DNA from: Acidobacteriaceae bacterium
GTDB lineage: Bacteria; Acidobacteriota; Terriglobia; Terriglobales; Acidobacteriaceae
DNA length: 64,000 nt
Direction of reading: 5' to 3'
Assembly (NCBI GenBank): GCA_003151335.1
Contig: PLXE01000102.1
Location: 1-64,000 of the forward strand
Shown here: one piece after another, positions 1,806-20,533 of the stretch
Layout: every line of letters starts with the position of its first letter
How positions within the stretch are numbered: the stretch's first letter is position 1
The notes under the pieces: model-generated
Databases searched by the model: none
What the model was told of the DNA's origin: nothing
What the model saw: only the letters and a program-made list of their open reading frames with translations
Made by a program: the position numbers and the translations under genes

Positions 1806-2225
1806 ATGCCAGTGAGCGATCTACGCCTGATCCAGAGATGCTCAGAGTTTAGCCCTCAAGATAGCATCAACTTTGTGCCGCCCAATACTCGCGGAATCTA
1901 TGTTCTGCTTCGGAGAATAAAGACGCCAGCGCCGAGGCAGCCGAAGTTTGATGTGGTCTATATCGGAATGGCGCGCGGCTTGAAGACAGGAATTAGAGGA
2001 CGATTGATTTCGCACAAGAAACGTATAGGTGATGAGTGGACGCACTTTTCCGTATTTGAAGTTTGGCCCAATATTAGCGAGACGGAGATAGCGGAACTTG
2101 AGGGGCTTTTCCGCCACATCTATCGTAAAGACCGGAAAGCCATTCGCCTAAACTCTCAGCGCGAGTTTCTCAAACTGAAGAAGGTCCGCAAGGCGTTCCC
2201 GTGGACTCCCTGGCCGCTTCCGTGA
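1806..2225 (+). CDS. GIY-YIG nuclease-domain protein
   Basis: A 139-aa protein from the ATG at 1806 (MPVSDLRLIQ). It carries the two defining strands of the GIY-YIG fold, RGIYVLLRR and VVYIGMARG, followed by an arginine-rich helix (GIRGRLISHKKR) and a glutamate in the ETEIAELEGLFRHIY helix. These fit the catalytic Tyr/Tyr, Arg and metal-binding Glu of the family, so nuclease activity is plausible. The open frame extends upstream to 1629 but looks non-coding there. Stand-alone GIY-YIG proteins occur in homing elements and in restriction or defence islands. It sits just outside the inverted repeat that bounds the Hsp70-SNF2-DISARM block, so a link to that block is possible but unproven. Confidence 0.7.
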   Translation: MPVSDLRLIQRCSEFSPQDSINFVPPNTRGIYVLLRRIKTPAPRQPKFDVVYIGMARGLKTGIRGRLISHKKRIGDEWTHFSVFEVWPNISETEIAELEGLFRHIYRKDRKAIRLNSQREFLKLKKVRKAFPWTPWPLP

Positions 2226-2249
2226 GGGGGCCGCGGAGCTAGAAGCACC

Positions 2250-2367
2250 TCAGCGCACTCGACCGGCTTGCCCAATTACCCCCTCGAACCTGTTCCGCTA
2301 AGTGGCTGATATTGTGACCCCACCCATTGCGCGGTTCATTTGCCCACAAACACAAGATTTTGGGCAG
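2250..2367 (+). repeat. Left inverted repeat flanking the Hsp70-SNF2/DISARM block
   Basis: Two conserved blocks define it: CGGCTTGCCCAATTACCC at 2264-2281 and a 27-mer starting TGCCCACAAACA and ending TTTTGGGCAG at 2341-2367. The reverse complement of both blocks occurs at 20534-20637. The first block is identical (18/18) and the second matches 24/27. The spacing between blocks is exactly 59 bases in both copies, with partial similarity between them. A weaker match continues outward (CTCA-CG---TCGAC). The copy lies downstream of the Hsp70-like gene. Confidence 0.75.
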
Positions 2368-2468
2368 AGCAAACCAAGACTGCCGGTTGGTTCGTTTGTT
2401 TAGTTGTTCGAGTTGCTCGACTCGATTTGCGGCGGCTTCGACTTCACCGAACGAGCAGTCATCGGGAT

Positions 2469-3827
2469 TCACTTTGCATAAATATCTTCGCGGTCGAGAC
2501 GATTACGCCTTTCATTTCTGTCTGGCATTGGGGGCACTTCGCCAGGTGTAAGAGCTTCTGGGACCGAGAGACCAATGTTTGACAGTCCGTAGGCAACGGT
2601 TACAAATGGCAACTCGCCGATCGTCACCTTCTTGTTGTCGGCGCGCACCAAGTCCGCTGGTTGTTCGAGGACCGCCAGGTCAAGCACCACTCCTCGGCCT
2701 GGATGTAGGCGGCATGACTCCACCAGAGCGGGAATAAGACTGCCCCCGCCGATGACGAAAATCCTGTGATCTTTCCACGCAGTCAATTCAGCGACGTACT
2801 TGTTTATCTTGTGATAAGTCTCGATCCAGGCTTTGTGATAGGCCTCGTAGATTTGTTCTTGCACTGGAATTAACGCTCTACGAGCCCTAGCGTCCGATTG
2901 CAGGATGGAGTTTTCCAAACCCCTTAACGCGAGGCAGTCGCCGCCCAAACCCTGACAGCCTGCAATAGCACTATCCACCGCATCCATTCCAACCGGGACG
3001 GTGACTGCACCGAAGAATGCTATTCCTGCTTTTGGCGTCCTATTGTTTCCGAAGATTCGATATAAGCTTGAGTGCGTTGTACCTGCGCCAATATCCACTT
3101 TCGCATACGAACCCGCGGCGATTGCGGGTGATTGGAAGGGCCACCACATTGCAGCCTCGCCCTCCGACCGGATCCAGTCCCGTACCTCGTATTCGGGTGT
3201 TGCCGGAACTGCCGCGGACGGATGTCGCTGCAATATCCTGAGTGCCTGGTCGATTGCCAGAGTCGGGCCGACTAGACCCTCTTCTCGGTAGAGCGACCAG
3301 GCTCGGCGAGCGATCATCAGGAATGACGACCTTAGCTTTTGATCTTTGAAGAATGCCATTGGAACTCCCATCGTCATACCAATGGCAACACCTTCCATAT
3401 CTCCCCTGAGGTAGGCGGCGACTGCACGGTGCCCTTCGGAAATCAGGAACCATACTGTAAGTACGGCGAGATCGACAGAAGTGAACCCATCCGGCAGCTT
3501 CTTGACTGGGCCGAAATAGTAACTTGACTTTCCACTCACTGCTGCTGCCGCCTGCATTTTGACACTCTCGAAGATGTCGCAATCCTCGCGCTCTTTCCAC
3601 TTATCACCAAACACCAACTCCGAAGCGGTTACACACACCCTAGACGGGATCCGAAACGATCCGTATCGCAAAACGACTACAGCGACTTCTCCTCCCGGTG
3701 CTCCGTAATCGCGAAACACGATCTTCGACGCACTTGTTCCATAGTCGATACCGAGGTGAACCCGGCGTTTAGTTCTAACTGGAATCTGCGTCCGAGACTT
3801 CCAAAAATCCCACCGCAATTTCTTCAT
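2469..3827 (-). CDS. Hsp70/actin-fold ATPase (nucleotide-binding domain only)
   Basis: 452 aa. The actin/Hsp70 ATPase fold is recognised from phosphate-1 (HLGIDYGTSASK, residues about 23-35), phosphate-2 (VDIGAGTTHSSLY, about 244-256) and the adenosine motif (IFVIGGGSLIPAL, about 353-366). It is much shorter than DnaK (about 640 aa) and has no recognisable substrate-binding domain, so it is more likely a regulatory or switch ATPase than a chaperone. Its ATG lies 53 bases inside the end of the upstream SNF2-like helicase gene, and no usable later start is seen before the phosphate-1 motif. The two are therefore almost certainly co-translated. Partnership with the helicase is inference from this overlap. 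I do not recognise the pair as a named system. Confidence 0.85.
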   Translation of the reverse strand: MKKLRWDFWKSRTQIPVRTKRRVHLGIDYGTSASKIVFRDYGAPGGEVAVVVLRYGSFRIPSRVCVTASELVFGDKWKEREDCDIFESVKMQAAAAVSGKSSYYFGPVKKLPDGFTSVDLAVLTVWFLISEGHRAVAAYLRGDMEGVAIGMTMGVPMAFFKDQKLRSSFLMIARRAWSLYREEGLVGPTLAIDQALRILQRHPSAAVPATPEYEVRDWIRSEGEAAMWWPFQSPAIAAGSYAKVDIGAGTTHSSLYRIFGNNRTPKAGIAFFGAVTVPVGMDAVDSAIAGCQGLGGDCLALRGLENSILQSDARARRALIPVQEQIYEAYHKAWIETYHKINKYVAELTAWKDHRIFVIGGGSLIPALVESCRLHPGRGVVLDLAVLEQPADLVRADNKKVTIGELPFVTVAYGLSNIGLSVPEALTPGEVPPMPDRNERRNRLDREDIYAK

Positions 3828-6800
3828 GTTCGATTGCGCCCCATGTTTGATTTTTGTTATGGGTTAGGAACAAGTCTTTCTCTTGCTGAGCCTTTGAAAG
3901 CTGTGCCCTGGTCATTCTGATCGCGAACTCGTTTGCACGAGATGTTTCCAATCTCGTTAGCCGGTCCAAGATGCGCTTCACGCGGAAGTCGAGGATTGCC
4001 ATCCGGGAAACGGACTGCTGTTCGAGTCTGGCTTGCTCCAATCTCGATTCGCGCTTTTCCCAGTCCATCTTCAGCTCGCTAAGGGCTTCCACCAAGAGTT
4101 CCTTGATTCGGGTGGTGTCACTCAACTGCGGTACATTCCTGAGATCGGTCCCGTTGTCCAACATCTCAATTAGCAGAGCCGTAGACTCCTCAGGATCGGC
4201 CCAGACTCTGCCGCTGGACCAGTCCGCAAACAAGACGACCAGCTTCGTCAGCGATCGCTCCGTGCGAACATGGATTAGGGCCACGAGAAAGCCATACTGC
4301 CCGGGTGGCAATCGTCTTGAGGAAAGCGACATTGCAAACGCAGAGTTCCTCGAACCCTTTTCTTTGCTGGTTTCTGAGACGGCAAACCGCGTTAACGGGT
4401 GCTGAAGGTGAATCAGTTCGGCACGCGGGTGACGATACCCAGCTTCGCGTGACAGCGTAATATCCACAGGCCCCGTGCTGATCCGCCTGCCAAACATCGC
4501 GGCGTCGTGGCCGAGTTCGACGGCACTACCTTCAAGCGCAAAGCCGAGCGTCATGCCGAGGTTTATCGAGGCAACTTCACTGACAACGCGGGACGGGAGT
4601 TGGGTTCCGGGATACCGATTCGCGAGAAACGAGTTGAGGAAAAGAATCAACTCATGCTCAGACGGGAGTTGCCGTTCCCCAATGATGGCATTGATCTCGT
4701 CGATGAGCGCCTGGTCCGCCGCGAGCAGGCCATCGACTCGGGTAAGCATTGTCTTGGCTTCAAGCACTCGCCGTGCCAGCGCGTCACCCTGCTGCGTGAC
4801 CATCCTGTCCAGTTCTTCAGGCGCTAGATCGCCCTGCAATGCTCGGCCAGCAAGCCGCTCAATTTCTTCGCCGATAATCGGATCAGGTTCCCCGATAGAT
4901 TCCTTGAAGATTTCGATTTTCGTCAACAGCCTTTGCAGAACGCGCTCTTCGATTGAATCCTCGACGACGAAATTAAGGATCACAAGCCGCTTCGCCTGCT
5001 GGCCGATTCTGTCGATTCTGCCAATCCGCTGCTCGACTACCATCGGGTTCCACGGCAGGTCGTAGTTGAACAGAACGGATGCGGATTGAAGGTCGATGCC
5101 TTCGCCGCCCACTTCTGATGTCAGCAAGACAGGCGCGTCAGTGCGCTCCAAGAAATCGTCGATTGCCCGCTCTCGGTCGTCCATTGGGACGCCGCCGTGA
5201 ATCATGCGGTTCGAGATGCCCCGCTGCGTGAGCGCCCGCGCCAAATACTCAAGTGTTCTGCGGAAGAATGAGAAGACCACGATCTTCCGCCGAGGGTTCT
5301 TGTTCTCTTCATCGTCTTTCCAGGTTTTGCGGAACGCAGAGAGCAGCTCTTCCAGCTTGGAATCGTGTTCTGGCACCCGGTAAGACGACTTGACGATCTG
5401 TTCCAATGCTGTCCGCGCAGGACCAGTCCACGCTGTCAATTCCTCCGCTTCCTGCCACCCACTGTCTTCGTCGTCCGAGACTGGCGCGACTTCTTGCTCC
5501 GTCTCTTTCAGCTTGTCCGCGAAGTACTGAAGAGCAGCGGGAATGCAGCTTGCCGTCATGCGGTAAGCCATCATGAGGCTCATCTGGAAACCCCACGAAT
5601 CTGCCGTCCCTGGCCACTGCTTGCGGCAGATTTCTTCAACGCTTTCGTAGATTTCGCGTTCCTCTTCGTTCAAATGGACGCGCTGCCAGTGCGGATCACG
5701 CTTTGGACGGTTCGGCAGCGCCTCGATCTTGCGCGTGCGGGAAATGATGTGGCTCGTCGGGCTCAGCCTCGAAATGTCGGCTTGGAGTTCAAGGCAATCT
5801 CTGCGATCGGACGGGGCCTCGGCCAATCGTTCCATAATTGAGGCTAGGAACTGTCGGCCAGACCTCTCGGGAGCATAGCGCCGGATGAAAGACTCGACAC
5901 TCTTCTTCGCGGCATCGTAATCGGGCGGATGGTTTGCTAGCGAATTCTGGGCTGCTAGAATCAGACGGTTGCCCTTGATCTGCTCCTGAAACAATGGCCA
6001 CTCACTGAACTCGTCAGGCGAGAGAAGTTTCAGAAGATTCCACAAGTCTTCCAGCTTGTTCTGAACGGGCGTAGCGGTGAGAAACAGAACTGCGTTCGCG
6101 GAACGAGTCAGGACCATACCAACTTTGTGCTGAAGCGTCTCAGGGTTGCGCAAACGGTGCGCTTCATCCACGATCAACACATCAATGGGGAGCGGTACAT
6201 CGTCCAATGCGGCACGAACCTCGTCCGACCGAGAGCTTTCAAACGACGTGATCCAGCGAAATTCCTCTAACTCGCGCCCCTTTGCAATTCGGTTGGCCTG
6301 CTCGATCAGGTCAGTCCCTTTCACAACCTTAAACTGCTCACCGAACCGCTGCCGCAGTTCCTTTTCCCACTTTGATCTCAGTCGTGCTGGTACAACGATC
6401 AGCACGCGCTCAATGGCTTGGTGGGCATCCAGTTCGCGCAGAATGTAGGCCGCTTCGATGGTTTTTCCTAACCCCACATCATCGGCAATCAATATCGCCT
6501 TACCAGGGTTGTCCAGGAATTTGAGCAGCGGCTTGAACTGGTGCGGATAGAACTGAGTCCGCGCTGTTGCGAAGGAGTGTGCGATACGTGCAGGGGGACT
6601 CTTCAGCCGTTCATACGTGAGGGTGAATACGAAGTGCGCCTTACCCGACAGGCTGCCTTGCTCAAACGCCCCCCACGGACTCTGGACGATCGAAACAACT
6701 TCCAAAGCCTCTTCGGGAACGGCGCGTAGCTGTGCTCCGAACTGGACGAGGTAATTCCAGCTTTCCACCTGAACGTCCCAGCGATGTTCGCGGACGATTC

Positions 6801-6870
6801 CAGCCAGTTCGGGCTGATTTACTCGCTGGACATAATCACCAACTTCGAACCTGGGTGGAATTTGCTGCAT
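3775..6870 (-). CDS. SNF2/RapA-like helicase paired with the Hsp70-like ATPase
   Basis: 1031 aa. An N-terminal SH3-like segment (FEVGDYVQRVNQPELAGIV) precedes a superfamily 2 motor. Walker A is DDVGLGKTIEA (about 129-139), the Walker B box is VDEAHRLRN (about 233-241), and motif III is LFLTATPVQNK. Helicase C has SEVGGEGIDLQSA and the arginine finger region VEQRIGRIDRIGQ (about 580-625). About 400 further residues, partly helical and charged, form a C-terminal region I cannot name. The architecture matches HepA/RapA-type SNF2 translocases that act on double-stranded DNA or protein-DNA complexes. It is the first gene of a two-gene minus-strand operon with the Hsp70-like ATPase and is divergent from drmD, itself a SNF2-type protein. 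The two motors share motif style but not length or flanks. Confidence 0.85.
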   Translation of the reverse strand: MQQIPPRFEVGDYVQRVNQPELAGIVREHRWDVQVESWNYLVQFGAQLRAVPEEALEVVSIVQSPWGAFEQGSLSGKAHFVFTLTYERLKSPPARIAHSFATARTQFYPHQFKPLLKFLDNPGKAILIADDVGLGKTIEAAYILRELDAHQAIERVLIVVPARLRSKWEKELRQRFGEQFKVVKGTDLIEQANRIAKGRELEEFRWITSFESSRSDEVRAALDDVPLPIDVLIVDEAHRLRNPETLQHKVGMVLTRSANAVLFLTATPVQNKLEDLWNLLKLLSPDEFSEWPLFQEQIKGNRLILAAQNSLANHPPDYDAAKKSVESFIRRYAPERSGRQFLASIMERLAEAPSDRRDCLELQADISRLSPTSHIISRTRKIEALPNRPKRDPHWQRVHLNEEEREIYESVEEICRKQWPGTADSWGFQMSLMMAYRMTASCIPAALQYFADKLKETEQEVAPVSDDEDSGWQEAEELTAWTGPARTALEQIVKSSYRVPEHDSKLEELLSAFRKTWKDDEENKNPRRKIVVFSFFRRTLEYLARALTQRGISNRMIHGGVPMDDRERAIDDFLERTDAPVLLTSEVGGEGIDLQSASVLFNYDLPWNPMVVEQRIGRIDRIGQQAKRLVILNFVVEDSIEERVLQRLLTKIEIFKESIGEPDPIIGEEIERLAGRALQGDLAPEELDRMVTQQGDALARRVLEAKTMLTRVDGLLAADQALIDEINAIIGERQLPSEHELILFLNSFLANRYPGTQLPSRVVSEVASINLGMTLGFALEGSAVELGHDAAMFGRRISTGPVDITLSREAGYRHPRAELIHLQHPLTRFAVSETSKEKGSRNSAFAMSLSSRRLPPGQYGFLVALIHVRTERSLTKLVVLFADWSSGRVWADPEESTALLIEMLDNGTDLRNVPQLSDTTRIKELLVEALSELKMDWEKRESRLEQARLEQQSVSRMAILDFRVKRILDRLTRLETSRANEFAIRMTRAQLSKAQQEKDLFLTHNKNQTWGAIEHEEIAVGFLEVSDADSS

Positions 6871-7266
6871 CCCTTATCGCCCACTCCGTGACAGGGTGGC
6901 GGCCCCCATGTGCCTGCTGCTTTTCGGCATGAAACTAAGTGCAAGCCTGGCTTGCAAGCCTACCAGAGACTAAACCAGTTCCACGGTGATCTCTATCACG
7001 TCATGGGGGTGGGACAAACCGCGGATAAAGTATCTCTTGAAGCTCGCGAGGAAAGCAGGTCTAATTGCATTCTGTCCTTACAATCATTTGCTGCCTGGCA
7101 ATCAGCGAGAGCGGGCGAACAATCTTTGGCTCCGTTAGCTCTCAGGTTTGACCATTTTGTTTGCGACCATGGAAAGCATCCCAAATCCGGTCAATTTGAT
7201 TGCGAAGTTCGCCAGGAAGAAACGAACCCTACGGGCTGCGGAGAAGCTAACACGAAGAACAACAAC
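6871..7266. other. Divergent promoter region between the Hsp70-SNF2 and DISARM operons
   Basis: 396 bases separate the start of the SNF2-like gene from the chosen drmD start. The drmD frame is open back to 6910, but those 119 codons lack any SNF2 feature and read like shadow coding. I favour the ATG at 7267, just before a conserved-looking N-terminus. Both operons must be transcribed from here. No clear -35/-10 pair stands out. Confidence 0.45.
6986..6999. promoter_or_regulatory. Small inverted repeat, possible operator
   Basis: GTGAT-CTCT-ATCAC is a 5-bp dyad with a 4-bp spacer inside the divergent promoter region. It has the size of a repressor half-site pair and could couple control of both operons. 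The symmetry does not extend further, so chance is a real alternative. Confidence 0.25.
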
Positions 7267-10200
7267 ATGAATCTCGCCGAAGATGTCCAGCCTGCCGGCC
7301 CTATCAGGAGGCAAACTTTTTCTGTTCCCACGGTCGGCGAACTGGTGCGGGTCCGCTCGCGACGTTGGCTCGTCGACGAGGTCATCGAACCAAAGATCCC
7401 CGGACAAACTTGCGTTGTCCGCCTCTCGTGCGCCGATGATGACGCTCAGGGGCAGGCCCTAGAGGTCCTCTGGGATTACGAACTCGACCGTTTGATTCTC
7501 GAGGAAGAAGGTTGGGCCGAACTCGCGGCCAAGGGCTTCGACCAGCCGCGCCTGTTTGCGGCGTTTCTGCATACGCTCCGGTGGAACTGCGTGACTGCCA
7601 CCGACCCAAATCTATTTCAGGCGCCCTTCCGCGCCGGAATCAAGATCGATGCCTACCAGATGGAACCGCTCCGCAAGGCGCTCCGCCTGCCGCGCGTCAA
7701 CCTCTTCATTGCCGACGACACGGGTCTCGGCAAGACGATCGAGGCTGGTCTCATCGTCCGCGAGCTTCTCCTCCGAAAAAAAGTCAAAACCATCGTAGTG
7801 GCGACGCCACCCTCGGTCCTTGAGCAGTGGAAGGCCGAGCTCGAGGAGCGTTTTGGCCTTGTATTCGAATTGCTCGACCGTGCCTACCTGACGCGGATGC
7901 GCCGCGAGCGAGGCTTCGGTGTGAATCCGTGGCGTACCCACAGCCGCTTTCTAATATCCCACAACCTCCTGATCGATCCGGCCTACGCAGATCCGCTACG
8001 TGAGTGGCTAGGTAAGTTCCTGCCGGGAAGCCTTTTGGTTCTAGACGAGGCTCATCACGCCGCACCTGCGAGCGGGGGCCGCTACGGAATCGAGACCAAG
8101 TTCACGCGCGCTGTGCGGGATCTCGCCGGCCGCTTCGAGCACCGTCTATTCCTTTCGGCAACCCCCCACAACGGGCACTCGAACAGCTTCTCCACACTTC
8201 TCGAGCTCCTTGATCCCTACCGGTTCACCCGCGGCGTCAAGGTTCGGGGCAAGAAGGCACTCGAGGATGTGATGGTGCGCCGCCTCAAGGAGGACATCAG
8301 AAACGTGCAGGGAGGGTTCCCGAAGCGGACCATTGATCGCGTCGCGATCGAAGGACTTCCAGAGGACGCCCCTGAGCTCGTGTTATCCCGCCTGCTCGAC
8401 GAGTACCGAACCGCGCGTGAGGAGCGCTTTGCAAGCACCACTCGCCGGGCCCAGGCCGCCTCGGGCCTGCTGGTGGTCGGCTTGCAGCAGCGTCTCCTTT
8501 CATCGATTGAGGCCTTTGCGCGTAGCCTGAAGGTGCACCGCACAACCGTGGAGAGGCAGTGGGAGAAGGGGCAGACAAGCGATGCCGAGATTGCCCCTGC
8601 GAGCGACGCGGATCTCTTCACCTCTGCACCCGACGCCGACGACGAGCGTAGCGAGTGGACACCTGAAGAGCTCGACGCCGAGGATGCGGATCAGATCAAG
8701 GTTGTTACCGCCACCGCGGAGGCCGACTCACCGCGAGATGAAAACGCAGAGAAGCTCTGGCGCCGCGAACAGGCTCTCCTCGACCAAATGCAGGCGATTG
8801 CCGAGAAGGCGCGCTACCTTCCCGACGCTAAGATCCGACGGCTGATCGACTGGATCCGCGGCAACCTGTGCCCCGACCTGCCCATCCTCGGCAAGCAGGC
8901 GAAGGGCCCGACCCCCACCTGGAACCCTCGGCGTGTCCTCATCTTTACGGAGAATCGCGAAGGCACAAAGCGCTACCTGAAGACAATCCTTGAACAAGCG
9001 ATCGAAGGGACTGACCGCGCCGAGGAGCGTATCGAGGTGATCGACGGCCTTACCAGCGGCGCACGGCGCAAGGAGATCCAGCGTCGTTTCAATACTGACC
9101 CCGCGAAGGACCCGCTGCGCATCCTGCTCGCCACCGACGCCGCCCGCGAAGGGCTGAACTTCCAAGCGCATTGTGCGGATCTTTTCCATTTCGACCTGCC
9201 CTGGAATCCGGGCCGAATCGAGCAACGCAACGGGCGCATCGACCGCAAGCTTCAGCCAGCCCTGGAAGTGTACTGTCACTATTTCGTGCTCCCTCAGCGG
9301 GTCGAAGACCGGGTGCTCGAGGTTCTGGTCAAGAAGACGGAGACCATCAAGAAAGAGCTCGGCAGCCTCTCGAAGGTCATTGATGACGACATCGAGCGCC
9401 GCCTGGGACAGGGCATCCGACACCGCGACGCCGATCAGTTGGCGCGCGAGATCGAACATGCGGACCTTGACGCGGAGAAGAAGCGCGTCTCCGAGGAAGA
9501 ACTCGAAGCAGCGCGAGAGCGTCAGGAAGACCTGAAGGCGCAGATCGAGCGTTGCCAGAGTCTGCTTGAGACATCGCGTATCTGGACCGGCTTCGAGGCC
9601 GCGCCATTCCGTGATGCGCTGTCCTGTTCCCTTGAGCTCCTCGGTGCCGAGCGGCTCGCGGAAGCGACTGATGACGCAGGTCGGCCGGTCTGGACATTCC
9701 CGCGGCTCGACCGCCGAGCGGAAACCGATGCGAGCTGGGCCGCGACCCTCGACACCCTCCGCACGCCACGCAAGCAGAACCAGAAGCTCGCCGACTGGCG
9801 CCGCGAGGCACCCATTCGGCCAGTCGTTTTCAAGGACGCTGGCGTACTCACTGAGGACACCGTCCACCTGCATCTTGAGCAGCGGGTCGCCCAGCGCCTA
9901 CTCTCGCGCTTCCGCTCGCAAGGCTTCATCCACCACGACCTGTCGCGCGCGTGCCTCGCGCAGGCCACCGACTCAATTCCGCGCGTGATCCTGCTGGGAC
10001 GCCTCTCGCTCTACGGTCAGGGCGCGGAGCGGCTTCACGAGGAGCTGGTGCCGATCACGGCGCGTTGGATCGAGCCGTCCCAGCGTAAGGGATCGCTTGC
10101 GGCCTACGCGCGGGACGCAGAGGCGAGGACGCTCGAACTCCTTGAGCGTTCGCTTGGCCGTGGCCTCCAGATGCCTGTGGCGACGATCCAACGCAAGCTT

Positions 10201-10584
10201 CTCGACGCGGCGCCGCGGGACATTGCTGAATTGCTGCCCCAGCTCGAGCCGCGAGCGGCGGAAATGGCGGTGCTTGCCATCCAGAAGCTTGGTCAGCGGG
10301 GCGCTCGCGAGGAGAAGGATCTGCGGGAAACCCTTGAGCGACAACGCGAGAGAGTACGCGAAGAGCTCGCCAAGAATGAGGGCGCGTTCGAGCAGCTCAC
10401 CATCGATTTCGGCGACGAAGAGAAGCGCCAGCTCGAATCCGACATGCGCTCCTGGCGAAGTCGCCTCGAGCAGTTCGAGCGTGATCTCACGCGCGAGCCG
10501 CGGCGGATTCGAGCGTTCTATGAGGTGCGAGCAAAGCGTGTAGAGCCGGTTGGACTCGTCTATCTCTGGCCGGAGACGAACTGA
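7267..10584 (+). CDS. drmD: DISARM DrmD, SNF2-type helicase
   Basis: 1105 aa from the ATG at 7267. It is a SNF2-like motor with Walker A DDTGLGKTIEA (about 150-160), the DEAH box LVLDEAHHAAP (about 257-267), FLSATPHNGH, and helicase C with TDAAREGLNFQAH plus RIEQRNGRIDR (about 620-660). Long charged coiled-coil stretches follow (EELEAARERQEDL, LERQRERVREEL). In class 1 DISARM this SNF2 protein is the signature gene alongside the adenine methylase. Here it is the first gene of five, its TGA sharing one base with the next ATG (TGATG). The identification rests on domain content plus the exact class 1 gene order. Its role in blocking incoming phage DNA is known for the family and inferred here. 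Confidence 0.9.
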   Translation: MNLAEDVQPAGPIRRQTFSVPTVGELVRVRSRRWLVDEVIEPKIPGQTCVVRLSCADDDAQGQALEVLWDYELDRLILEEEGWAELAAKGFDQPRLFAAFLHTLRWNCVTATDPNLFQAPFRAGIKIDAYQMEPLRKALRLPRVNLFIADDTGLGKTIEAGLIVRELLLRKKVKTIVVATPPSVLEQWKAELEERFGLVFELLDRAYLTRMRRERGFGVNPWRTHSRFLISHNLLIDPAYADPLREWLGKFLPGSLLVLDEAHHAAPASGGRYGIETKFTRAVRDLAGRFEHRLFLSATPHNGHSNSFSTLLELLDPYRFTRGVKVRGKKALEDVMVRRLKEDIRNVQGGFPKRTIDRVAIEGLPEDAPELVLSRLLDEYRTAREERFASTTRRAQAASGLLVVGLQQRLLSSIEAFARSLKVHRTTVERQWEKGQTSDAEIAPASDADLFTSAPDADDERSEWTPEELDAEDADQIKVVTATAEADSPRDENAEKLWRREQALLDQMQAIAEKARYLPDAKIRRLIDWIRGNLCPDLPILGKQAKGPTPTWNPRRVLIFTENREGTKRYLKTILEQAIEGTDRAEERIEVIDGLTSGARRKEIQRRFNTDPAKDPLRILLATDAAREGLNFQAHCADLFHFDLPWNPGRIEQRNGRIDRKLQPALEVYCHYFVLPQRVEDRVLEVLVKKTETIKKELGSLSKVIDDDIERRLGQGIRHRDADQLAREIEHADLDAEKKRVSEEELEAARERQEDLKAQIERCQSLLETSRIWTGFEAAPFRDALSCSLELLGAERLAEATDDAGRPVWTFPRLDRRAETDASWAATLDTLRTPRKQNQKLADWRREAPIRPVVFKDAGVLTEDTVHLHLEQRVAQRLLSRFRSQGFIHHDLSRACLAQATDSIPRVILLGRLSLYGQGAERLHEELVPITARWIEPSQRKGSLAAYARDAEARTLELLERSLGRGLQMPVATIQRKLLDAAPRDIAELLPQLEPRAAEMAVLAIQKLGQRGAREEKDLRETLERQRERVREELAKNEGAFEQLTIDFGDEEKRQLESDMRSWRSRLEQFERDLTREPRRIRAFYEVRAKRVEPVGLVYLWPETN

Positions 10585-13500
10585 TGGCTAGTTCCAAACG
10601 TGATCCCGAGATTGTCGCCCACCTGGAGTGGATCGGATTCGTCCGACCGACGGGTCTTGTCGTGTCAGCTACGGCGCTCGTCCGCGCGGGTGCAATCCTC
10701 GACAGACGTGATACCGAGGGCCAGAGGCTCCTGCGCGCTTGCGTCGCGGATCGCGTGTTCGACCCCAAGGAAGGTGGAGTCCCGTACCTGTCCGACTTTC
10801 GCCGATTCGCGGAGTCAGTGCTGGGCTGGAATTTCTCACCGAAGGGCTACTCCGGCACAACCGAGTGCCCGATCCCAACCGAGCTGGAGGTGCCACTGGA
10901 TTGCAGCGAGACACTTCGGCCTGATCTCGCCGTCCGTGAGCTTGAGCCGAAGGAAGGTGCATCGATCTGGCAGCTCCTTGTGCGGGTCCTCGAGCCCGGA
11001 GACGACTTTGACCGTGTCGTGCATGAACGAGGTCAGCTCGATGCCTCGGCTCACGGCCGTATGGAGAGGCTGTTGCGCCAGACTGGCGTGCCCGCGGGTC
11101 TGCTGTTCAACGGGCGGGTGTTGCGCCTGGTCTCCGCGCCGCGGGGAGAGAGCTCAGGCTGGCTCAACTTCAGCGTCGCAGACATGGTCCAAACGGCGGG
11201 CCGACCGATCTCGACCGCGCTGCGCCTGCTTCTCGGCCAGCCGCGACTCCTATCACTGCCGCGCGCGCAACGCCTCGCCGCCCTTCTCGAGGACAGCCGC
11301 AAGTATCAGAACGAGGTCAGTGAGAAGCTGGCCGAGCAGGTTCTCCACGCTCTGTACGAACTCTTGCGCGGATTTCAGGCCGCCCACGACGCCTCGAAGG
11401 GCGAACTCCTGCGCAAAGCGCTCGCCGAGCACCCCGACGAAGTCTACCGCGCGCTGCTCACCGTCATTCTTCGGCTCGTCTTTTTGCTTTACGCGGAGGA
11501 GAAGGACATGCTTCCGGAGGACGAGACCTTCCTGCGCTACTATTCGCTCGCAGGCCTCTACGAGCGCCTTCGCGAGGATGCCGCGCTCTTTCCGGACACG
11601 ATGGATCAGCGCTACAGCGCTTGGGCACAGCTTCTCGTCCTCTTCCGAATGATCCATGATGGTGCCGAATCCGGCACGATGCGGCTTCCCAAGCGCCACG
11701 GCGTGCTCTTCGACCCCGACCGCTTCACGTTCCTCGAAGGTCGCTCATCCGGCGGCGCACGTCATGTCGACGAGCGCATTGAGCCACCGCTCGTGCCAGA
11801 CGGCACGATCTACCGCGCGCTCGAAAAACTTTTGGTCCTCGACGGCGAGCGCATCTCCTACCGTGCGCTTGACGTGGAGCAGATGGGCTCCGTCTATGAG
11901 ACGATGATGGGCTTCCGGCTAGAGACGACGACCGGCCGTTCGGTGGCGATCAAGGCTCAGAAGAAACAGGGCGCACCCACTGCAGTGGACCTTGAGGCGT
12001 TACGAGGCGAGCCCGCGGGCGAGCGCGAAAAGTGGATCCAGGACCGCACCGACCGCAAGCTCACCGGCACCGTCGAGAAGGCTCTGGTTGCAGCCACGAC
12101 AGTCGAGGATCTTCACTCAGCGCTGCTGCCAGTGATTGACCTTGCGGCTACGCCTGACCTCGTGTCGAAGGGCGCGATGGTCCTCCAGCCCAGCGAGGAG
12201 CGGCGCGGCTCCGGCTCACACTACACCCCACGCGCGCTCACCCAGCCCATCGTGCGCCGGACGCTGGAGCCGATCCTCGCCCGCCTGCGCGGGAAAGACG
12301 GTAGGCCGCCCCGGCCTTTGCAGATCCTGGACCTCAAGGTCTGCGATCCAGCAATGGGCTCGGGGGCATTTCTCGTCGAAACCTGCCGCCATCTCGGTGA
12401 CGCGCTGGTCGAGGCCTGGCATGCCCACGGCGAACCGCAAGCGATCCCGGCAGACGAGGATGAGGTTATCTTCGCGCGCCGACTGATCGCACAGCGTTGC
12501 CTTTACGGTGTGGACAAGAACCCCGTGGCGGTGGACCTCGCCAAGATGTCGCTCTGGCTGGTTACACTAGCCAAGGATCACCCGCTCACGTTTGTGGACC
12601 ACGCACTGCGTCACGGCGATTCGCTGGTCGGGCTCTCGCGGAAACAGATCGAGGCGCTGCACTGGGATTCTGGATCGCCAATTCTCGAGGGATTGGGAGT
12701 TCGCGAGCCGTTAGAAAAGGTCACCGCGTTACGCAAGCGCATTCGTGAGGCGGGCGAGAGCGTGTCCGACTGGGAGGTGCGAGACCTGTGGGACCACGCC
12801 AAGTCCGAGCTGGACAAGGTGCGGCTTTTGGGGGACCTCGTGATCGCGGCGTTCTTCGAGGCTGAGAAGCCCAAGGATCGGGAGGGGAAGCGCGCCGGGT
12901 ACGTTAGCGCGGTCGTGAGTGGCGAGGCCGACCGCTACCATGGCCGGCTGGAAGAGTGGCGGCACGCCGAGCGGCCACTAGTGCCGTTTCACTGGGAGAT
13001 TGAGTTTCCGGAGGTGTTTGAACGTGAGAATTCGGGGTTCGATGCGATCGTAGGAAATCCGCCCTTCTTGGGAGGAACAAGAATCTCGACGGTTGCCGGA
13101 ATGACGTACTTCCAGTGGCTTACGTGCATGTTTCCACCTTGCGAGCATCTGTGCGATCTTGTCGCTTACTTCTTCCGCCGTGCATTCGGCCTTCTTCGAG
13201 CGCGTGGCACCTTCGGTCTGATCGCCACAAACACAATTTCGCAAGGTGACACTCGAGAGGGAGGGCTCCGAACGATTCTGCATCAGGGCGGACAGGTCTA
13301 TGCTGCAACCCGACGCTTCAGATGGCCAGGCTCAGTTGCCGTCGTCGTTAGCATGGTTCACGTTTCCAAGCAATGCCCCGCAACAGCAGCTTTCCTCGAT
13401 GGAAAGTGGGTGCCTCGCATAAACGCATACCTCACGGAAGGAACCAACGATGAAAGCCCTGCTCGTTTGTCGGCGAATCCGTACTTTTCCTTGGGTAGCA

Positions 13501-14549
13501 AGATCTACGGGCAGGGATTTCTTTTTGCTGACGGCGACCCGGAATGCACGCCGCTTAACGTCTGCGACAAGCTTCTCCAGAAGCGGCCCGATCTTGAGAG
13601 TCGCATTCGACCGTACATCGGTGGGGAAGAGATTCTGTCACATCCAAGGCAGATGTATCACAGATACGTAATTCTATTGAGTGACCTCCAGTCTGAGGCC
13701 GACTTAGAAGAGTGGCCTGAGCTACGAGATATTATTCGCGATAAGGTGAAGCCTGGCCGGGAAATCCTCGGTAACAATCCGAACAACATACCCCTGAAAC
13801 GGAAATGGTGGGCCTTTCAGGCGCATAGACCAGAGCTCTATGAACGCCTTGCCTCCATGCGGCGCGTGCTCGTCACATCTCAAGTGAATCCGCGCTTCGG
13901 ATTCACCTTGATGCCGGCCGATTGGATCTTTTCCCAGAAAGCGGTGGTGTTTTGCATCGAGAGTTATTCTGGCTTTGGAACAATACAGTCCCGTGTTCAT
14001 GAGGTCTGGGCGAGGTTTTTTAGTAGTACTTCTATTGAATTGATGAGCTACACGCCATCTGACTGCTTCGAGACTTTCCCTTTCCCCAAAAACTGGGAAA
14101 ATCACTCCGTCCTTGAAGCCGCCGGCAAGGCCTATTTCGAGTTTCGCGCGGGTGTAATGGTCAAGAACAACGAGGGCCTGACCAAGACCTACAACCGCTT
14201 CCACGATCCCGACGAGCGCGATCCGGACATCCTGCAAATTCGCGAGCTGCACGCCGCCATGGACCGCGCCGTGCTCGACGCCTACGGCTGGAATGACATC
14301 CCGACCGACTGCGAATTTCTGCTCGACTACGAGATCGACGAAGAGGAGGGGGGAGGCAAGAAGAAGCCTTGGCGCTACCGCTGGCCCGACGAGGCCCGTG
14401 ACGAGGTGCTGGCGTTGCTTCTGGAACTCAATGCCGAACGCGCGAAGGAAGAGGCGCGCTCCGGCGCTACTGCGGCAAAGAGGGGCGGCAAGAAATCGGC
14501 AGCGAAGCGCGCACACAGGGCTCCGGAGACGGAGGACCTCTTTTCATGA
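10584..14549 (+). CDS. drmMI: DISARM DrmMI, adenine-specific DNA methylase
   Basis: 1321 aa. The N6-adenine methyltransferase core shows the SAM-binding motif CDPAMGSGAFLVE (about 588-600) and the catalytic NPPF in DAIVGNPPFLGG (about 818-830). Between them lies a region of the kind seen in large type IIG/Eco57I-like methylases. The about 550-residue N-terminal part has no nuclease motif I can see. The C-terminus ends in a lysine/alanine-rich tail. In class 1 DISARM this enzyme marks host DNA so that it is spared. No separate specificity subunit (hsdS) is nearby, which argues against a type I restriction locus. It overlaps drmA by 4 bases (ATGA), so expression is coupled. Confidence 0.9.
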   Translation: MASSKRDPEIVAHLEWIGFVRPTGLVVSATALVRAGAILDRRDTEGQRLLRACVADRVFDPKEGGVPYLSDFRRFAESVLGWNFSPKGYSGTTECPIPTELEVPLDCSETLRPDLAVRELEPKEGASIWQLLVRVLEPGDDFDRVVHERGQLDASAHGRMERLLRQTGVPAGLLFNGRVLRLVSAPRGESSGWLNFSVADMVQTAGRPISTALRLLLGQPRLLSLPRAQRLAALLEDSRKYQNEVSEKLAEQVLHALYELLRGFQAAHDASKGELLRKALAEHPDEVYRALLTVILRLVFLLYAEEKDMLPEDETFLRYYSLAGLYERLREDAALFPDTMDQRYSAWAQLLVLFRMIHDGAESGTMRLPKRHGVLFDPDRFTFLEGRSSGGARHVDERIEPPLVPDGTIYRALEKLLVLDGERISYRALDVEQMGSVYETMMGFRLETTTGRSVAIKAQKKQGAPTAVDLEALRGEPAGEREKWIQDRTDRKLTGTVEKALVAATTVEDLHSALLPVIDLAATPDLVSKGAMVLQPSEERRGSGSHYTPRALTQPIVRRTLEPILARLRGKDGRPPRPLQILDLKVCDPAMGSGAFLVETCRHLGDALVEAWHAHGEPQAIPADEDEVIFARRLIAQRCLYGVDKNPVAVDLAKMSLWLVTLAKDHPLTFVDHALRHGDSLVGLSRKQIEALHWDSGSPILEGLGVREPLEKVTALRKRIREAGESVSDWEVRDLWDHAKSELDKVRLLGDLVIAAFFEAEKPKDREGKRAGYVSAVVSGEADRYHGRLEEWRHAERPLVPFHWEIEFPEVFERENSGFDAIVGNPPFLGGTRISTVAGMTYFQWLTCMFPPCEHLCDLVAYFFRRAFGLLRARGTFGLIATNTISQGDTREGGLRTILHQGGQVYAATRRFRWPGSVAVVVSMVHVSKQCPATAAFLDGKWVPRINAYLTEGTNDESPARLSANPYFSLGSKIYGQGFLFADGDPECTPLNVCDKLLQKRPDLESRIRPYIGGEEILSHPRQMYHRYVILLSDLQSEADLEEWPELRDIIRDKVKPGREILGNNPNNIPLKRKWWAFQAHRPELYERLASMRRVLVTSQVNPRFGFTLMPADWIFSQKAVVFCIESYSGFGTIQSRVHEVWARFFSSTSIELMSYTPSDCFETFPFPKNWENHSVLEAAGKAYFEFRAGVMVKNNEGLTKTYNRFHDPDERDPDILQIRELHAAMDRAVLDAYGWNDIPTDCEFLLDYEIDEEEGGGKKKPWRYRWPDEARDEVLALLLELNAERAKEEARSGATAAKRGGKKSAAKRAHRAPETEDLFS

Positions 14550-17500
14550 CTGCGCCAACCGAAGGCAACTTTCCCACAACCTCCCAAGAGGTGCGCGAGC
14601 GGTTGGTCGATGCGCTGAAGCTGGACCTCATCGGTCCTCGGGCGGGCCAGGCACTCGCTAACGAGCGACTGCCTGGCTGGGTGCGCCCATCGAACTGGTA
14701 TCTGACCGGCTTCCTAATTCCGTCGGGTACGCCACCCGAGAGGGGTGCCGACGCCGATGAGGATGATGACGTCGGTGTGATTCCTGATTCAGCGGGCCTG
14801 GCTGAGGAGTCGAACGATGAGCGCAAAGCAGCCAAGAAGGGTTTCTTTCCCTCGTCGATGGGACTGAGCTTCCTTGTGCCGAAGGAAGCGCACAGCATCA
14901 CCGTGGTCCTACGCTGGGGCGACTATACGCGGTCGGAGATTGAGGGTACCGACGGCAAGGCTATATCCGTCTGGCAGCGACAATCGCGGTCGGAGACTGT
15001 TCCTGTGACTCTCCGCGAGTCCAACGAACCAGTCCACGATGTGCCCAACTCCGGCGGCCTACAGCTCCATATCGTCGAACGATTGATCCTCAGCGGCGAT
15101 CTTGATCAGCATATCCCGCAAGGCACTCGCTCGGTTTCGGTCTTTCTTGTGAACCATCGCGCACCGGATGCGGATAATCCGGATCTCGCCTACATTTTCC
15201 AAGCTGAGATCGAAGTGCGAGGGGACTATCCGTTTGTGCCGCGACCGGACTTGCGTGGCGCGCAGGCCGCCGAGTGGGACGATCAGGTTGCCGATCTCCA
15301 CTATGCCGACACCCCTGAATACGCCACCGGCCACGGTGTCTCCGCCGAGTGGGAGATTGTGGACGGAGCGTGCCGACTGCTGCGCAGTGCATGGATGCCA
15401 AGCGCTCAAGTGGAAAAGACAGCGACCGTGGATGCGCCGGGCACCGAGTTGTCGATGGAGGTGCTTGGCACACTCGCCGATGGCCAAGCCGCCGAAACAG
15501 CACTTCGATCGCTCGTAGGTCAATATCGCGCTTGGATCGAGGCGCGGGGACCGATCATCGCGACGCTGCGAGGGAGTCGGCGCGACACAGCGGACGAGCT
15601 ATTGCGCTTTGCGGGTGTTGCCGCCGATCGGATCGCGCGGGGCATCGCGCTTCTAGCTCAGGATGCGGACGCGCTCGACGCCTTCCGGGTGGCTAATCGT
15701 GCTGTGGCCCTGGCGCTTCGCAAGCGTCTCGGAATCGAGACGCCACGGTGGCGCACATTCCAGCTCGCCTTTCTACTGCTAAATCTCCCAGGCCTTACCG
15801 ACCCGTGCGACCCCAACCGCGCAACGGTGGACTTGCTGTTCTTCCCGACGGGCGGTGGTAAGACCGAGGCCTATCTCGGACTCGCGGCGTTTGCGATGGT
15901 GCTACGCAGGCTGCACCACCCCGGCGAGAAGGGTCGCTCGGGCGCCGGCGTGAGCGTCATCATGCGCTATACACTCCGACTGCTGACGCTCGATCAGCTC
16001 GCACGAGCCGCGGGGCTTGTGTGCGCGCTAGAGCTCGAACGCGAAAAGGACGTCACGCGCTACGGCGAGTGGCCGTTCGAGATCGGTCTTTGGGTGGGCA
16101 AAGCAGCCACACCGAACATTCTCGGGCATAAGGGGGACGGGCGCTCTGACTCAGCCCGAACCAAAGTGCGGCAGTTCAAGGCGGACCCCAAAGGTAAGCC
16201 GTCACCTATTCCTCTTGAGAACTGTCCGTGGTGCGGGACACGCTTCGGGCCAAGCTCGTTCGCACTGATGCCGAACGACGACCAGCCGCGTGAACTACGT
16301 ATCGTCTGCACGAACTTCGAATGCGACTTCACACGCGACCGTCCGCTCCCCATTGTGGCTGTGGACGAGCCGATTTACCGACGACTTCCAGCCTTCCTGA
16401 TCGCAACGGTTGACAAATTCGCATCGCTCCCATGGGTTGGCCAAACCGGATCGCTCCTCGGTGGGGCGGAGCGGCATGATTCGGCGGGTTTCTATGGAGC
16501 CTCGGAGCCAGGCAGGGGGACCCGTCTCGCCACGCCGCTCCCGCCGCCCGACCTCGTCATCCAGGACGAGCTGCACCTTATCTCGGGACCGCTCGGCACG
16601 ATGACTGGACTCTACGAGTCTGCGATCGAGGCCCTATGCGTGCGTGAAATTGACGGGCGTGCGGTGCGGCCGAAGATCGTCGCCTCGACCGCAACTGTGC
16701 GCCGGGCGCAGGACCAGATTCAGGCTCTCTTCGCGCGGCCACTGACGCAAGTGTTTCCTCCGCCCGGGCCCGACAGAAGTGACTCGTTCTTCGCGAGGAC
16801 GGTTCCCTCGTCAGAGACGGCTGCAAGGCTTTATCTCGGAATCGCCGCGCAAGGTAGGAACCCGAAAGTCATCATGCGCAAAGCATGGCTCGCCCTGATG
16901 GGCGCCGCCGAGCGCGCCTACCGCGACGCTGGCGGGCACAAGAACGAGCAGAACCCCGCTGACCCGTACATGACCGTGCTCGGCTACTTCAACAGCCTGC
17001 GCGAGCTGGGCGGGGCCCGCCGGATCCTCGAAGAGGAGGTCCAGAATACGATCAAGGCCTACGGTGGCCGCAAGCGGATTGGTGAGGAGCAAGGGATCTT
17101 TCGAGACCGCAAAACCTTCTCCGAGGTGGTCGAGCTCACCTCCCGCGTTTCGACTGACAAAGTGGCCGAGGCCCGCCGCCGACTCGAGACGCCATTCCAC
17201 AAGATTGAGCAGCGAGTAGATTGTGCAATCGCGACGAATATGATCTCTGTGGGCCTCGACATCCCACGCCTCGGTCTGATGGTCGTATTAGGGCAACCGA
17301 AGACACACGCTGAGTACATCCAAGCCACGAGCCGCGTGGGCCGCGATGACCAGCGACCCGGGCTCGTGGTCACGCTCCTCAATATTCACAAGCCACGCGA
17401 CCGCTCCCACTACGAACGGTTCCGGTATTACCACGAGACCTTCTATCGCTCCGTGGAGGTGTCCAGCGTCACGCCCTTCTCGGCACGGGCGCTCGACCGT

Positions 17501-17944
17501 GGTTTTGCCGGCGCGCTCGTGGGGCTGGCCCGGCACGTCGTACCGAAGCTGACCCCTCCGCAGGGAGTTGAATTGATCACGGATGTGCGGGCAGAGCTCG
17601 AGCGCCGGCTTCTCGATGCTTTCCTCGAGCGTGTCCGAAAGCAGCCTCTTGCGGACGAAGCGGAGCGCGAAGAATGCCTTCGCAGTGTTCAGAACAGGGT
17701 TGTCGAACTGCTCGACTCCTGGCGCAAAGTCTTCGACCACTACCATGCTGCCGGGGTATCTATGCAGTATCAGAAGTACGAGCTGAAGCAACCCCGGCCG
17801 TTACTTCGGGAAATGCTCGACACCAATTTCGAGTCCGATGACCACGGCAAGTTCCGTGCCAATCGATCGCTCCGCGACGTGGAGCCAGAGGTAAATCTGT
17901 TCTTAAAGGATTTGAGTGGTCTACAGGTAGAGGATCCCTCATGA
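14546..17944 (+). CDS. drmA: DISARM DrmA, helicase
   Basis: 1132 aa. A superfamily 2 helicase with an atypical Walker A (FFPTGGGKTEAYLG, about 432-445) and motif II QDELHLISGP (about 672-681). A four-cysteine zinc-binding site lies between them (CPWC near 560 and the paired CTNFEC near 590). Helicase C contains TNMISVGLDIPRLGL and YIQATSRVGRD (about 895-935). DrmA is one of the three DISARM core proteins and forms a complex with DrmB in characterised systems, acting on DNA with 5' overhangs. That role is known from the family. Here it starts within the end of drmMI and ends with a 4-base overlap into drmB, as expected of a single transcript. Confidence 0.9.
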   Translation: MTAPTEGNFPTTSQEVRERLVDALKLDLIGPRAGQALANERLPGWVRPSNWYLTGFLIPSGTPPERGADADEDDDVGVIPDSAGLAEESNDERKAAKKGFFPSSMGLSFLVPKEAHSITVVLRWGDYTRSEIEGTDGKAISVWQRQSRSETVPVTLRESNEPVHDVPNSGGLQLHIVERLILSGDLDQHIPQGTRSVSVFLVNHRAPDADNPDLAYIFQAEIEVRGDYPFVPRPDLRGAQAAEWDDQVADLHYADTPEYATGHGVSAEWEIVDGACRLLRSAWMPSAQVEKTATVDAPGTELSMEVLGTLADGQAAETALRSLVGQYRAWIEARGPIIATLRGSRRDTADELLRFAGVAADRIARGIALLAQDADALDAFRVANRAVALALRKRLGIETPRWRTFQLAFLLLNLPGLTDPCDPNRATVDLLFFPTGGGKTEAYLGLAAFAMVLRRLHHPGEKGRSGAGVSVIMRYTLRLLTLDQLARAAGLVCALELEREKDVTRYGEWPFEIGLWVGKAATPNILGHKGDGRSDSARTKVRQFKADPKGKPSPIPLENCPWCGTRFGPSSFALMPNDDQPRELRIVCTNFECDFTRDRPLPIVAVDEPIYRRLPAFLIATVDKFASLPWVGQTGSLLGGAERHDSAGFYGASEPGRGTRLATPLPPPDLVIQDELHLISGPLGTMTGLYESAIEALCVREIDGRAVRPKIVASTATVRRAQDQIQALFARPLTQVFPPPGPDRSDSFFARTVPSSETAARLYLGIAAQGRNPKVIMRKAWLALMGAAERAYRDAGGHKNEQNPADPYMTVLGYFNSLRELGGARRILEEEVQNTIKAYGGRKRIGEEQGIFRDRKTFSEVVELTSRVSTDKVAEARRRLETPFHKIEQRVDCAIATNMISVGLDIPRLGLMVVLGQPKTHAEYIQATSRVGRDDQRPGLVVTLLNIHKPRDRSHYERFRYYHETFYRSVEVSSVTPFSARALDRGFAGALVGLARHVVPKLTPPQGVELITDVRAELERRLLDAFLERVRKQPLADEAEREECLRSVQNRVVELLDSWRKVFDHYHAAGVSMQYQKYELKQPRPLLREMLDTNFESDDHGKFRANRSLRDVEPEVNLFLKDLSGLQVEDPS

Positions 17945-19737: not shown

Positions 19738-20516
19738 GCGACGCCCTGCTCGATCTTCCGTCGCATCTCCGCGACCGCTTGGCATGTGCTCTCGAGTCCG
19801 GACTGCTGGGTCCGTCTCCCACCCTCGTTTCGTTCCGCGCGGTGCTGGGGGATCGAGAGGACGCGGAGGACGTCGCCGCATCGCTGCTCGAACTCGAGCG
19901 GCTTGGGATCTCGGGGCCGGCCGCTGCTGCCTGGCTTCGAACTGTGGGAAGGGTTGCAGAGAGAACTCGGAAACCTGACCTTGTGTGGTCCGGCCCCGAA
20001 GTCCAAGGTTTGCACGCTCGAGATACCAGACGAGTCTACGAAGAGTTGCTCGGGTCTGCAGAGCGCTCGATTTGGGCGAGCACATACGCTTTTTTCGACG
20101 GTCCTAAGGCGTTCGAGATTTTGGCTCGACACATGGATACGACGCCAGCACTCCGAGTCACATTGTTGCTAAACATCCAACGCAAAAGGGGCGACTCTAC
20201 CGCTTCAGAACAATTGGTGAGGAGGTTCGCGGACCATTTCTGGAAGACCGACTGGCCCGGTTCGTCGCGTCCAAGTGTGTTTTACGACCCGCGATCGCTG
20301 GAGCAGGACGGTCCCGGTTGCGTTCTTCATGCGAAGGCCGTTGTCGCCGACGATGAAGCGGTATTCATAACATCAGCAAACCTCACTGAGGCTGCCTTGG
20401 ACCGAAATATCGAGCTTGGAGTTCTGATTCGCGACCGTGCATTCGCTCTGGCCGTCTGCGGTTATTTTCGGAGCTTGATAGATCGCGATCTGCTGAAACC
20501 CTTGCCGCTGACATGA
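19734..20516 (+). CDS. drmC: DISARM DrmC, phospholipase D-like protein
   Basis: 260 aa. A PLD-superfamily domain with the HxKx4D signature in VLHAKAVVADD (about 196-206), followed by the serine/asparagine strand ITSANLTEAALDRNIELG. Only one HKD motif is visible, so activity would need a dimer or a degenerate second site. DrmC is the third core DISARM gene, but it was reported to be dispensable in the Bacillus system. It closes the five-gene operon. Its stop lies 18 bases before the right inverted repeat. Confidence 0.9.
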   Translation: MSDALLDLPSHLRDRLACALESGLLGPSPTLVSFRAVLGDREDAEDVAASLLELERLGISGPAAAAWLRTVGRVAERTRKPDLVWSGPEVQGLHARDTRRVYEELLGSAERSIWASTYAFFDGPKAFEILARHMDTTPALRVTLLLNIQRKRGDSTASEQLVRRFADHFWKTDWPGSSRPSVFYDPRSLEQDGPGCVLHAKAVVADDEAVFITSANLTEAALDRNIELGVLIRDRAFALAVCGYFRSLIDRDLLKPLPLT

Positions 20517-20533
20517 TAGAAGGCCTCTGCAGC

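Follow-up and report, generated by a model that had tools for sequence, protein, structure and literature searches.

A SNF2-family motor and an Hsp70-like ATPase are encoded side by side near the start of contig PLXE01000102.1 of an Acidobacteriaceae bacterium (assembly GCA_003151335.1), and together they constitute a genuine two-gene unit whose members are nearly always paired and read in the same direction. We analyzed the first 64,000 nucleotides of this contig, here called the window. The SNF2 gene (3775..6870, minus strand) encodes 1031 amino acids and the Hsp70-like gene (2469..3827, minus strand) 452. As an earlier note on this DNA, made from its letters alone, had described, the two open reading frames (ORFs) overlap by exactly 53 bp (3775..3827, minus strand). 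If the Hsp70-like protein instead begins at an alternative TTG, the overlap shrinks to 44 bp; no in-frame ATG, GTG or TTG lies between this TTG and the first conserved residues. The reading we favor, to which we assign a probability of roughly 0.55, is that the pair is a stand-alone anti-invader operon whose products form one complex, with the Hsp70-like ATPase acting as the regulator of a DNA translocase.

To collect related loci, we scanned contigs with ten Hsp70-like proteins, which yielded 43 loci. Forty of these were intact and, with two loci found otherwise, make up a set of 42 that includes the near-duplicates L052/L054 and L037/L038. Loci L033, L050, and L053, which have no intact Hsp70-like ORF, were left out. 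At all 42 loci, the Hsp70-like gene has a SNF2 gene next to it, encoded on the same strand. The distance between the two genes ranges from -361 to 67 nt with a median of 0.5; 40 of the 42 values fall between -60 and 70, and 20 pairs overlap. The SNF2 gene comes first at 36 loci, and the six loci with the reverse order are all cyanobacterial. No third gene family occurred in more than four neighborhoods when ORFs of at least 120 amino acids within 7 kb were compared, the near-duplicate L054 being left out. Among the defective loci, L033 has an Hsp70-like gene in two pieces and no SNF2 gene in 12.6 kb, L050 (genome G318) retains remnants of both genes, and L053 lies at a contig edge with both genes present. 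Two further genomes, G611 and G309, contain Hsp70-like fragments with no SNF2 gene in the 12 and 14 kb examined.

Pairing was also examined in two genome samples. The host class was sampled evenly with 399 genomes; 11 hits to an Hsp70-like profile scored at least 128 bits (10 genomes, the window included), and all 11 were paired; weaker hits consisted of fragments scoring at most 61 bits and background. The reverse search of this sample returned 11 SNF2 hits at 1e-60, of which 10, again including the window, had an Hsp70-like partner; the lone exception was G335:C1:344324. Four of the partners found in this way had escaped tblastn with the window protein. A sample of 398 genomes of Pseudomonadota, the phylum of genome G683, gave five hits at 1e-20, all paired, two of which were already known (L052 and L069). 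The earlier note had asked for a search for co-occurrence across genomes and had counted failure to find the two genes together again as evidence against its proposal. Instead, the pair stands together at every intact locus and in the strong hits of both samples, and it recurs in ten phyla: Acidobacteriota, Pseudomonadota, Binatota, Planctomycetota, Synergistota, Omnitrophota, Cyanobacteriota, Spirochaetota, Verrucomicrobiota, and Kiritimatiellota.

The two genes are inherited jointly as a unit that moves horizontally. Across 21 genomes, distances between SNF2 proteins correlated with those between their Hsp70-like partners (rho 0.85), while the correlations of each protein with DnaK distances were 0.07 and 0.05. 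The partial correlation between the partners was 0.854, a value reached in none of 2000 permutations. Three pairs are plasmid-borne. A Leptolyngbya plasmid of 44 kb has the pair 7 kb away from type I-D cas1/cas2, and the 86-kb Cyanobacterium plasmid that carries another is mobilizable. The third plasmid, pAA03 of Aminobacter, is conjugative; there the pair is flanked by restriction genes and by a Hachiman-AbiEii cluster. All three records annotate the Hsp70-like gene as a hypothetical protein, and on a fourth, a 4.6-Mb Shinella replicon, no gene is annotated at its position. Culturable Mycoplana, Sinorhizobium, and Aminobacter are among the bacteria with homologues of the pair.

The Hsp70-like protein escapes standard annotation. 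It had no match in Pfam, NCBIfam, or PADLOC at 1e-3, and the Pfam HSP70 model (PF00012) detects DnaK in the window's genome but not this gene. A structure predicted from 36 sequences (predicted local distance difference test [pLDDT] 89.4; predicted template-modeling score [pTM] 0.88) nevertheless has the same fold as the nucleotide-binding domains (NBDs) of DnaK and other Hsp70s, with Z scores of ~28 over ~310 residues. In the comparison with 7n46, Z was 28.6 and 313 residues aligned with a root-mean-square deviation (rmsd) of 3.1, covering model residues 21-421. Since only a mostly low-confidence tail of ~30 residues follows this domain, the protein lacks the substrate-binding domain (SBD) of DnaK and Hsp70, as the earlier note had proposed. 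The fold comes with the phosphate-1, phosphate-2, and adenosine motifs of the Hsp70 superfamily, and 11 residues (D28, G30, T31, K35, K90, E222, D245, G247, G249, G360, and G361) are identical in all 36 sequences. We take these to include the counterparts of the DnaK catalytic residues K70, E171, and D194. Because of this correspondence, the protein likely hydrolyzes ATP. The six cyanobacterial homologues (L051, L057, L058, L062, L066, and L067) carry coiled-coil-like N-terminal extensions of very unequal lengths. These extensions were also considered as membrane anchors, an idea we rejected as no 19-residue window reached a hydropathy of 1.7.

Its partner is a superfamily 2 ATPase of the RapA architecture. 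The protein matches the Pfam models SNF2-rel_dom (PF00176; 103.8 bits, cut-off 24.9) and Helicase_C (83.2 bits), and has the SNF2-related domain, Walker A, Walker B (DEAH), and motif VI expected of a SNF2 ATPase, with the motif residues intact. The helicase motifs are invariant across 35 aligned sequences. When we predicted a structure from these 35 sequences (pLDDT 84.4; pTM 0.80), the top match was E. coli RapA (8spg; Z 24.1, 792 aligned residues, rmsd 10.2, residues 64-1028), in agreement with the designation of this protein as RapA-like in the earlier note. Eukaryotic remodelers followed, and the further matches also included ZorD (8qy7; Z 20.2). RapA was also the best sequence match in the PDB. 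The Walker A lysine of the SNF2 protein is K136, and its C-terminal part has long helices at residues 919-976 and 981-1006. Despite this shared architecture with RapA, the protein scores 181 bits against the curated RapA model NF003426, under its cut-off of 576, and it has an Hsp70-like partner, which RapA is not known to have. Beyond residue 690, the alignment contains no conserved acidic/lysine nuclease pattern, and we dropped the idea that the C-terminal part is a nuclease; the most strongly conserved positions there are H824, P825, G857, G1021, E818, and a few hydrophobic residues.

SNF2-type motors are common in defense systems, including DISARM, type 3 BREX, Dpd, and Zorya, and the closest of these motors to ours belong to the DrmD group. 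DrmD and its kin BrxHII, DpdE, HmaA, and ARMADA ArmA share the RapA-type SNF2 architecture over nearly their full length with the SNF2 protein of the pair. The latter, however, is accompanied by an Hsp70-like protein rather than by a methylase and DrmABC. Against the NCBI curated DrmD model NF038317 it scores 318 bits, under the cut-off of 610, and by that test it is not a DrmD. In a tree, one branch separates the SNF2s of 40 pairs from the DrmD of the window and four other SNF2s (86/86; 85% of bootstrap trees), although the long outside branches make the support for this branch moderate.

Defense-type genes neighbor the pair at 13 of the loci, only part of which were classified. In the window, the pair adjoins DISARM. 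Genes for DrmA and DrmB also lie near it at three other loci: with a DrmMII-type methylase and a split DrmB, followed by a NERD-helicase and a methyl-directed endonuclease, in G668 (L039); with a type III methylase in G683 (L069); and divergent from the pair in G663 (L030). The plasmid pAA03 and the Leptolyngbya plasmid, described above, add two more loci. L052 (with its near-copy L054), L063, L031, L034, and L005 (G058) also have defense-type neighbors, as does, more weakly, L049. The last, L221 (G914:C1:200001-219000), has DrmD-like and DrmMI-like genes. Extra SNF2-type genes stand by the pair at L221, L219, and L220, with a methylase-like gene at L221 as well, and are perhaps of BREX or ARMADA type. 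In G668, the ORF that splits DrmB (L160, G668:C43, 8592-10853, minus strand) is antisense, 753 amino acids long, and matches a short PADLOC model named DrmD (PDLC02630); this model is probably mislabeled, and the ORF perhaps encodes a mobile-element protein.

From this context at 13 loci, from carriage on plasmids, and from protein kinship, we conclude that the pair is probably an undescribed defense module. Since it combines two ATPases with no recognizable nuclease, a regulated translocase is suggested. The SNF2 protein would be a RapA-type translocase on double-stranded DNA and the Hsp70-like protein an ATPase reduced to a nucleotide clamp. The two proteins would bind each other, very likely working as one complex, and the clamp, opening and closing with ATP and ADP, would regulate or couple the motor, much like the actin-fold subunits of eukaryotic SNF2 remodelers, rather than fold proteins. 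The motor may target foreign DNA, or RNA polymerase or replication complexes upon it, and the outcome would be defense against phages or plasmids by blocking or stripping, with no cutting. The pair may act alone or help whichever restriction system is close. Binding, regulation, and the role in defense are all points that we infer. A more specific version of this proposal, that the pair is a new kind of stand-alone immune remodeler, comparable in design to eukaryotic SWI/SNF and INO80 with their actin-related-protein subunits, in which a SNF2 motor and an ATPase of the Hsp70/actin superfamily silence or strip invading DNA without cutting it, is offered tentatively, and we consider it a good deal less probable than the general one.

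Several observations weigh against a defense operon. No relative of the pair was found in the phage and viral collections searched, so a direct tie to phage conflict is missing. Many neighbors are ordinary, such as sulfatases, epimerases, a porin, and metabolic genes. Although 132 neighbor proteins (near-duplicates L054 and L038 left out) matched 91 PADLOC models and 127 control ORFs, drawn from some of these genomes, matched 29, these counts are of redundant models rather than proteins and are an indicative hint, not a test. The controls came from 34 chosen stretches, two of which proved nonexistent; one other shares its contig with L061 but is distant from the pair there. The control hits include a kinase-like family in four. 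The strictness of pairing may be overstated, since two candidates per genome in the reverse SNF2 search, or four otherwise, were scored and unpaired or weaker copies may be missed. Near-identical SNF2s in a Binatia and an alphaproteobacterial metagenome-assembled genome (branches of 0.024 and 0.026) count toward mobility but may reflect a binning error rather than transfer across phyla. Finally, the whole architecture of the SNF2 protein is that of RapA, which leaves room for a transcription-related role.

The last point leads to the main rival, that the pair is a mobile module for transcription or stress: a RapA-like recycler or remodeler of RNA polymerase complexes under an Hsp70-type ATPase would bring a benefit other than phage defense. 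We regard this as unlikely, yet it survives better than the other alternatives. RapA recycles RNA polymerase, and it is the best match of the SNF2 protein both in full-length structure and in PDB sequence. The conserved C-terminal positions E818, H824, and P825 presumably fit a RapA-type domain, and the many neighbors that are not defense-like point the same way. We know of no Hsp70 partner of RapA. A housekeeping function accords poorly with the sparse distribution of the pair, strong hits occurring in only 10 of the 399 genomes of the class sample, and with the failure of either protein to track host phylogeny as represented by DnaK. It also has to account for plasmid carriage and for defense neighbors that recur, and the genomes concerned already have an ordinary DnaK, which was full-length in 21 of the 24 pair genomes searched and partial in two. 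The earlier note had considered that its proposal would suffer if the pair occurred mainly in housekeeping contexts; the defense-type neighbors at 13 loci speak against this, whereas the ordinary character of many other neighbors speaks for it.

Somewhat less likely still, in our judgment, is that the pair is an accessory of DISARM, adding a second SNF2 motor and its regulator, both expressed from a common divergent region. In the window, the pair indeed lies next to and divergent from a set of genes that library matches identify as DISARM, all on the plus strand: drmD (7267..10584), drmMI (10584-14549), drmA (14546-17944), drmB (17941-19737), and drmC (19734-20516). We take this combination to be class 1 DISARM. 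The drmD ORF is listed from a GTG at 6910 and would then encode 1224 amino acids, of which the N-terminal ~120-135 fall outside the family models; homology begins at about residue 136-140. Because homology starts so late and an in-frame ATG is present at 7267, the latter is likely the true start, and the gap between the pair and DISARM is probably ~396 bp (6871..7266) rather than 40. A promoter scan restricted to 2200-7100 found one site where 1.8 were expected.

The wider distribution also argues against an accessory role. Of 41 pair genomes, 13 have a match to the DrmB family, over the cut-off in 12, and the other 28 have none. In four of the 13, DrmB lies within ~12 kb of the pair: G668, G683, and, with the two blocks divergent, the window and G663. 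Although four of 13 exceeds what random placement would give, and DrmA accompanies DrmB within that distance in G668, G683, and G663, such an excess is expected for defense islands. Thus, although the pair is found with drmA, drmB, and drmC in the window, this is not the rule. On the short contigs (9.9 and 10.3 kb) of the closest relatives (82/65% and 79/64% identity), nothing matched the DrmMI, DrmA, DrmB, or DrmC of the window. Moreover, the window has a true DrmD of its own, which scores 1027 bits against NF038317 compared with 318 for the SNF2 protein of the pair (cut-off 610).

The PADLOC name for this SNF2 family could be taken to favor an accessory role. The top PADLOC model for the protein, PDLC02623, is named DrmD (492 bits, residues 11-975) and matches all nine members of SNF2 alignment A2 (best 8.8e-295), which suggests that its authors encountered the family in DISARM loci. 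The window's true DrmD fits this model less well than the SNF2 of the pair does (124 versus 492 bits), and the label probably reflects pair loci that lie near DISARM. The earlier note had left it undecided whether the pair is an accessory of DISARM or a separate two-gene system. As the two genes are nearly always together and mostly without DISARM, a separate unit is favored and the DISARM branch is weakened.

The pair and DISARM are bracketed by the same inverted repeats, as the earlier note had remarked. The arms are real (27 nt, 89% identity), and each is part of a dispersed repeat of ~110 bp. Each of the two copies in the window lies 3' of one operon: the left copy (2255..2367, minus strand) downstream of the Hsp70-like gene and the right copy (20525 to 20645 or 20660, plus strand) just downstream of drmC. 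Within the repeat, both a TGCCCA...TGGGCA hairpin and another block are conserved. A further copy occurs on another contig of the same genome (C71:14758-14878, 81% identity), and there is a partial, weaker one at C28:7033-7058. Since the arms belong to a dispersed repeat with copies elsewhere, they are weak evidence for a single cassette; they may mark the borders of a mobile cassette or be no different from other dispersed copies, and they do not demonstrate that the pair and DISARM work jointly. Base composition in 3-kb steps showed no sharp change delimiting an 18-kb insert. We also considered the arms as terminators and rejected the idea, as one folds better than shuffled sequences (z -2.6) but the other does not (z 0.14), and no run of T follows.

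Further ORFs lie beyond the right repeat. An ORF of 396 amino acids just outside it (20794-21984, minus strand) weakly matches SLATT_1 (25.9 bits in Pfam and 37.7 in NCBIfam, both slightly below cut-off). The C-terminal part of a 486-amino-acid ORF (22474-23934, plus strand) resembles the TIR domains of defense proteins (PADLOC, 8e-14), and two large ORFs follow it (23931-26456 and 26432-28252).

A third alternative, that the pair is a toxin-antitoxin-like or abortive module in which one ATPase is harmful once infection frees it from restraint by the other, is improbable. Tight operons, with overlapping genes at 20 of 42 loci, and plasmid carriage would suit such a module. However, we found no nuclease, pore, or killing domain and no match to a toxin family in library searches, and both genes encode large, intact ATPases. 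The notion that the two genes are chance neighbors or an artifact of annotation is refuted, as they are paired at each of the 42 intact loci and among the strong hits from both genome samples.

If the pair is a defense operon, it appears to be one that has not been named. Consistent with the impression recorded in the earlier note, we found no family, system, or paper that matches it in the libraries and the portion of the literature searched, which lay within PMC and did not extend to subscription papers or to bioRxiv outside PMC; an Hsp70 and SNF2 defense pair was likewise not found in the accessible parts of PMC12839542, PMC10853773, and PMC12458937. The nearest precedents we encountered are two. 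CnuD proteins of CoCoNuT are Hsp70-like proteins of predicted restriction systems, described in the available text as combining an NBD with an SBD, with Walker A-like motifs that are degenerate and with McrB/McrC as partners (PMC11090510). The Hsp70-like protein of the pair, in contrast, consists of the NBD only, has intact motifs, and is partnered by SNF2, a term that appears at two places in the available text of that paper, both in figure legends. No McrB-like GTPase or CnuC partner was present among the 10 window proteins scanned; other loci were not scanned individually. The second precedent is a subset of GAP1-N2 GTPase conflict systems with a second Hsp70-domain protein "sans its peptide-binding domain" (PMC7159879). 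These systems are centered on a GTPase and include GrpE and DnaJ, and a SNF2 partner was not found in them in the part of the paper available.

Membership of the PADLOC candidate system PDC-M61 is also unsupported. PDC-M61B weakly matches nine of ten Hsp70-like proteins (best 7.4e-10), in the window protein over 23 residues at one ATP motif, and its partner PDC-M61A was found in none of 10 pair genomes and none of 14 control genomes. PDC-M61 itself was not found in any paper searched. A parallel in how the pair might work comes from eukaryotes, whose SNF2 remodelers (SWI/SNF, INO80, and SWR1) have actin-fold subunits and so combine an ATPase of the actin/Hsp70 superfamily with a SNF2 motor. 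We compare the mode of action and claim no homology; the bacterial partner is Hsp70-like rather than actin, and no docking helix has been demonstrated.

For annotation, our results imply that the DrmD label of PDLC02623 on this SNF2 family is likely to cause DISARM to be called in error. For the open question of how SNF2 motors are regulated, the pair offers a compact case of two proteins. If the defense operon we favor is correct, Hsp70-type ATPases would have been recruited into DNA remodeling or defense without their chaperone half.

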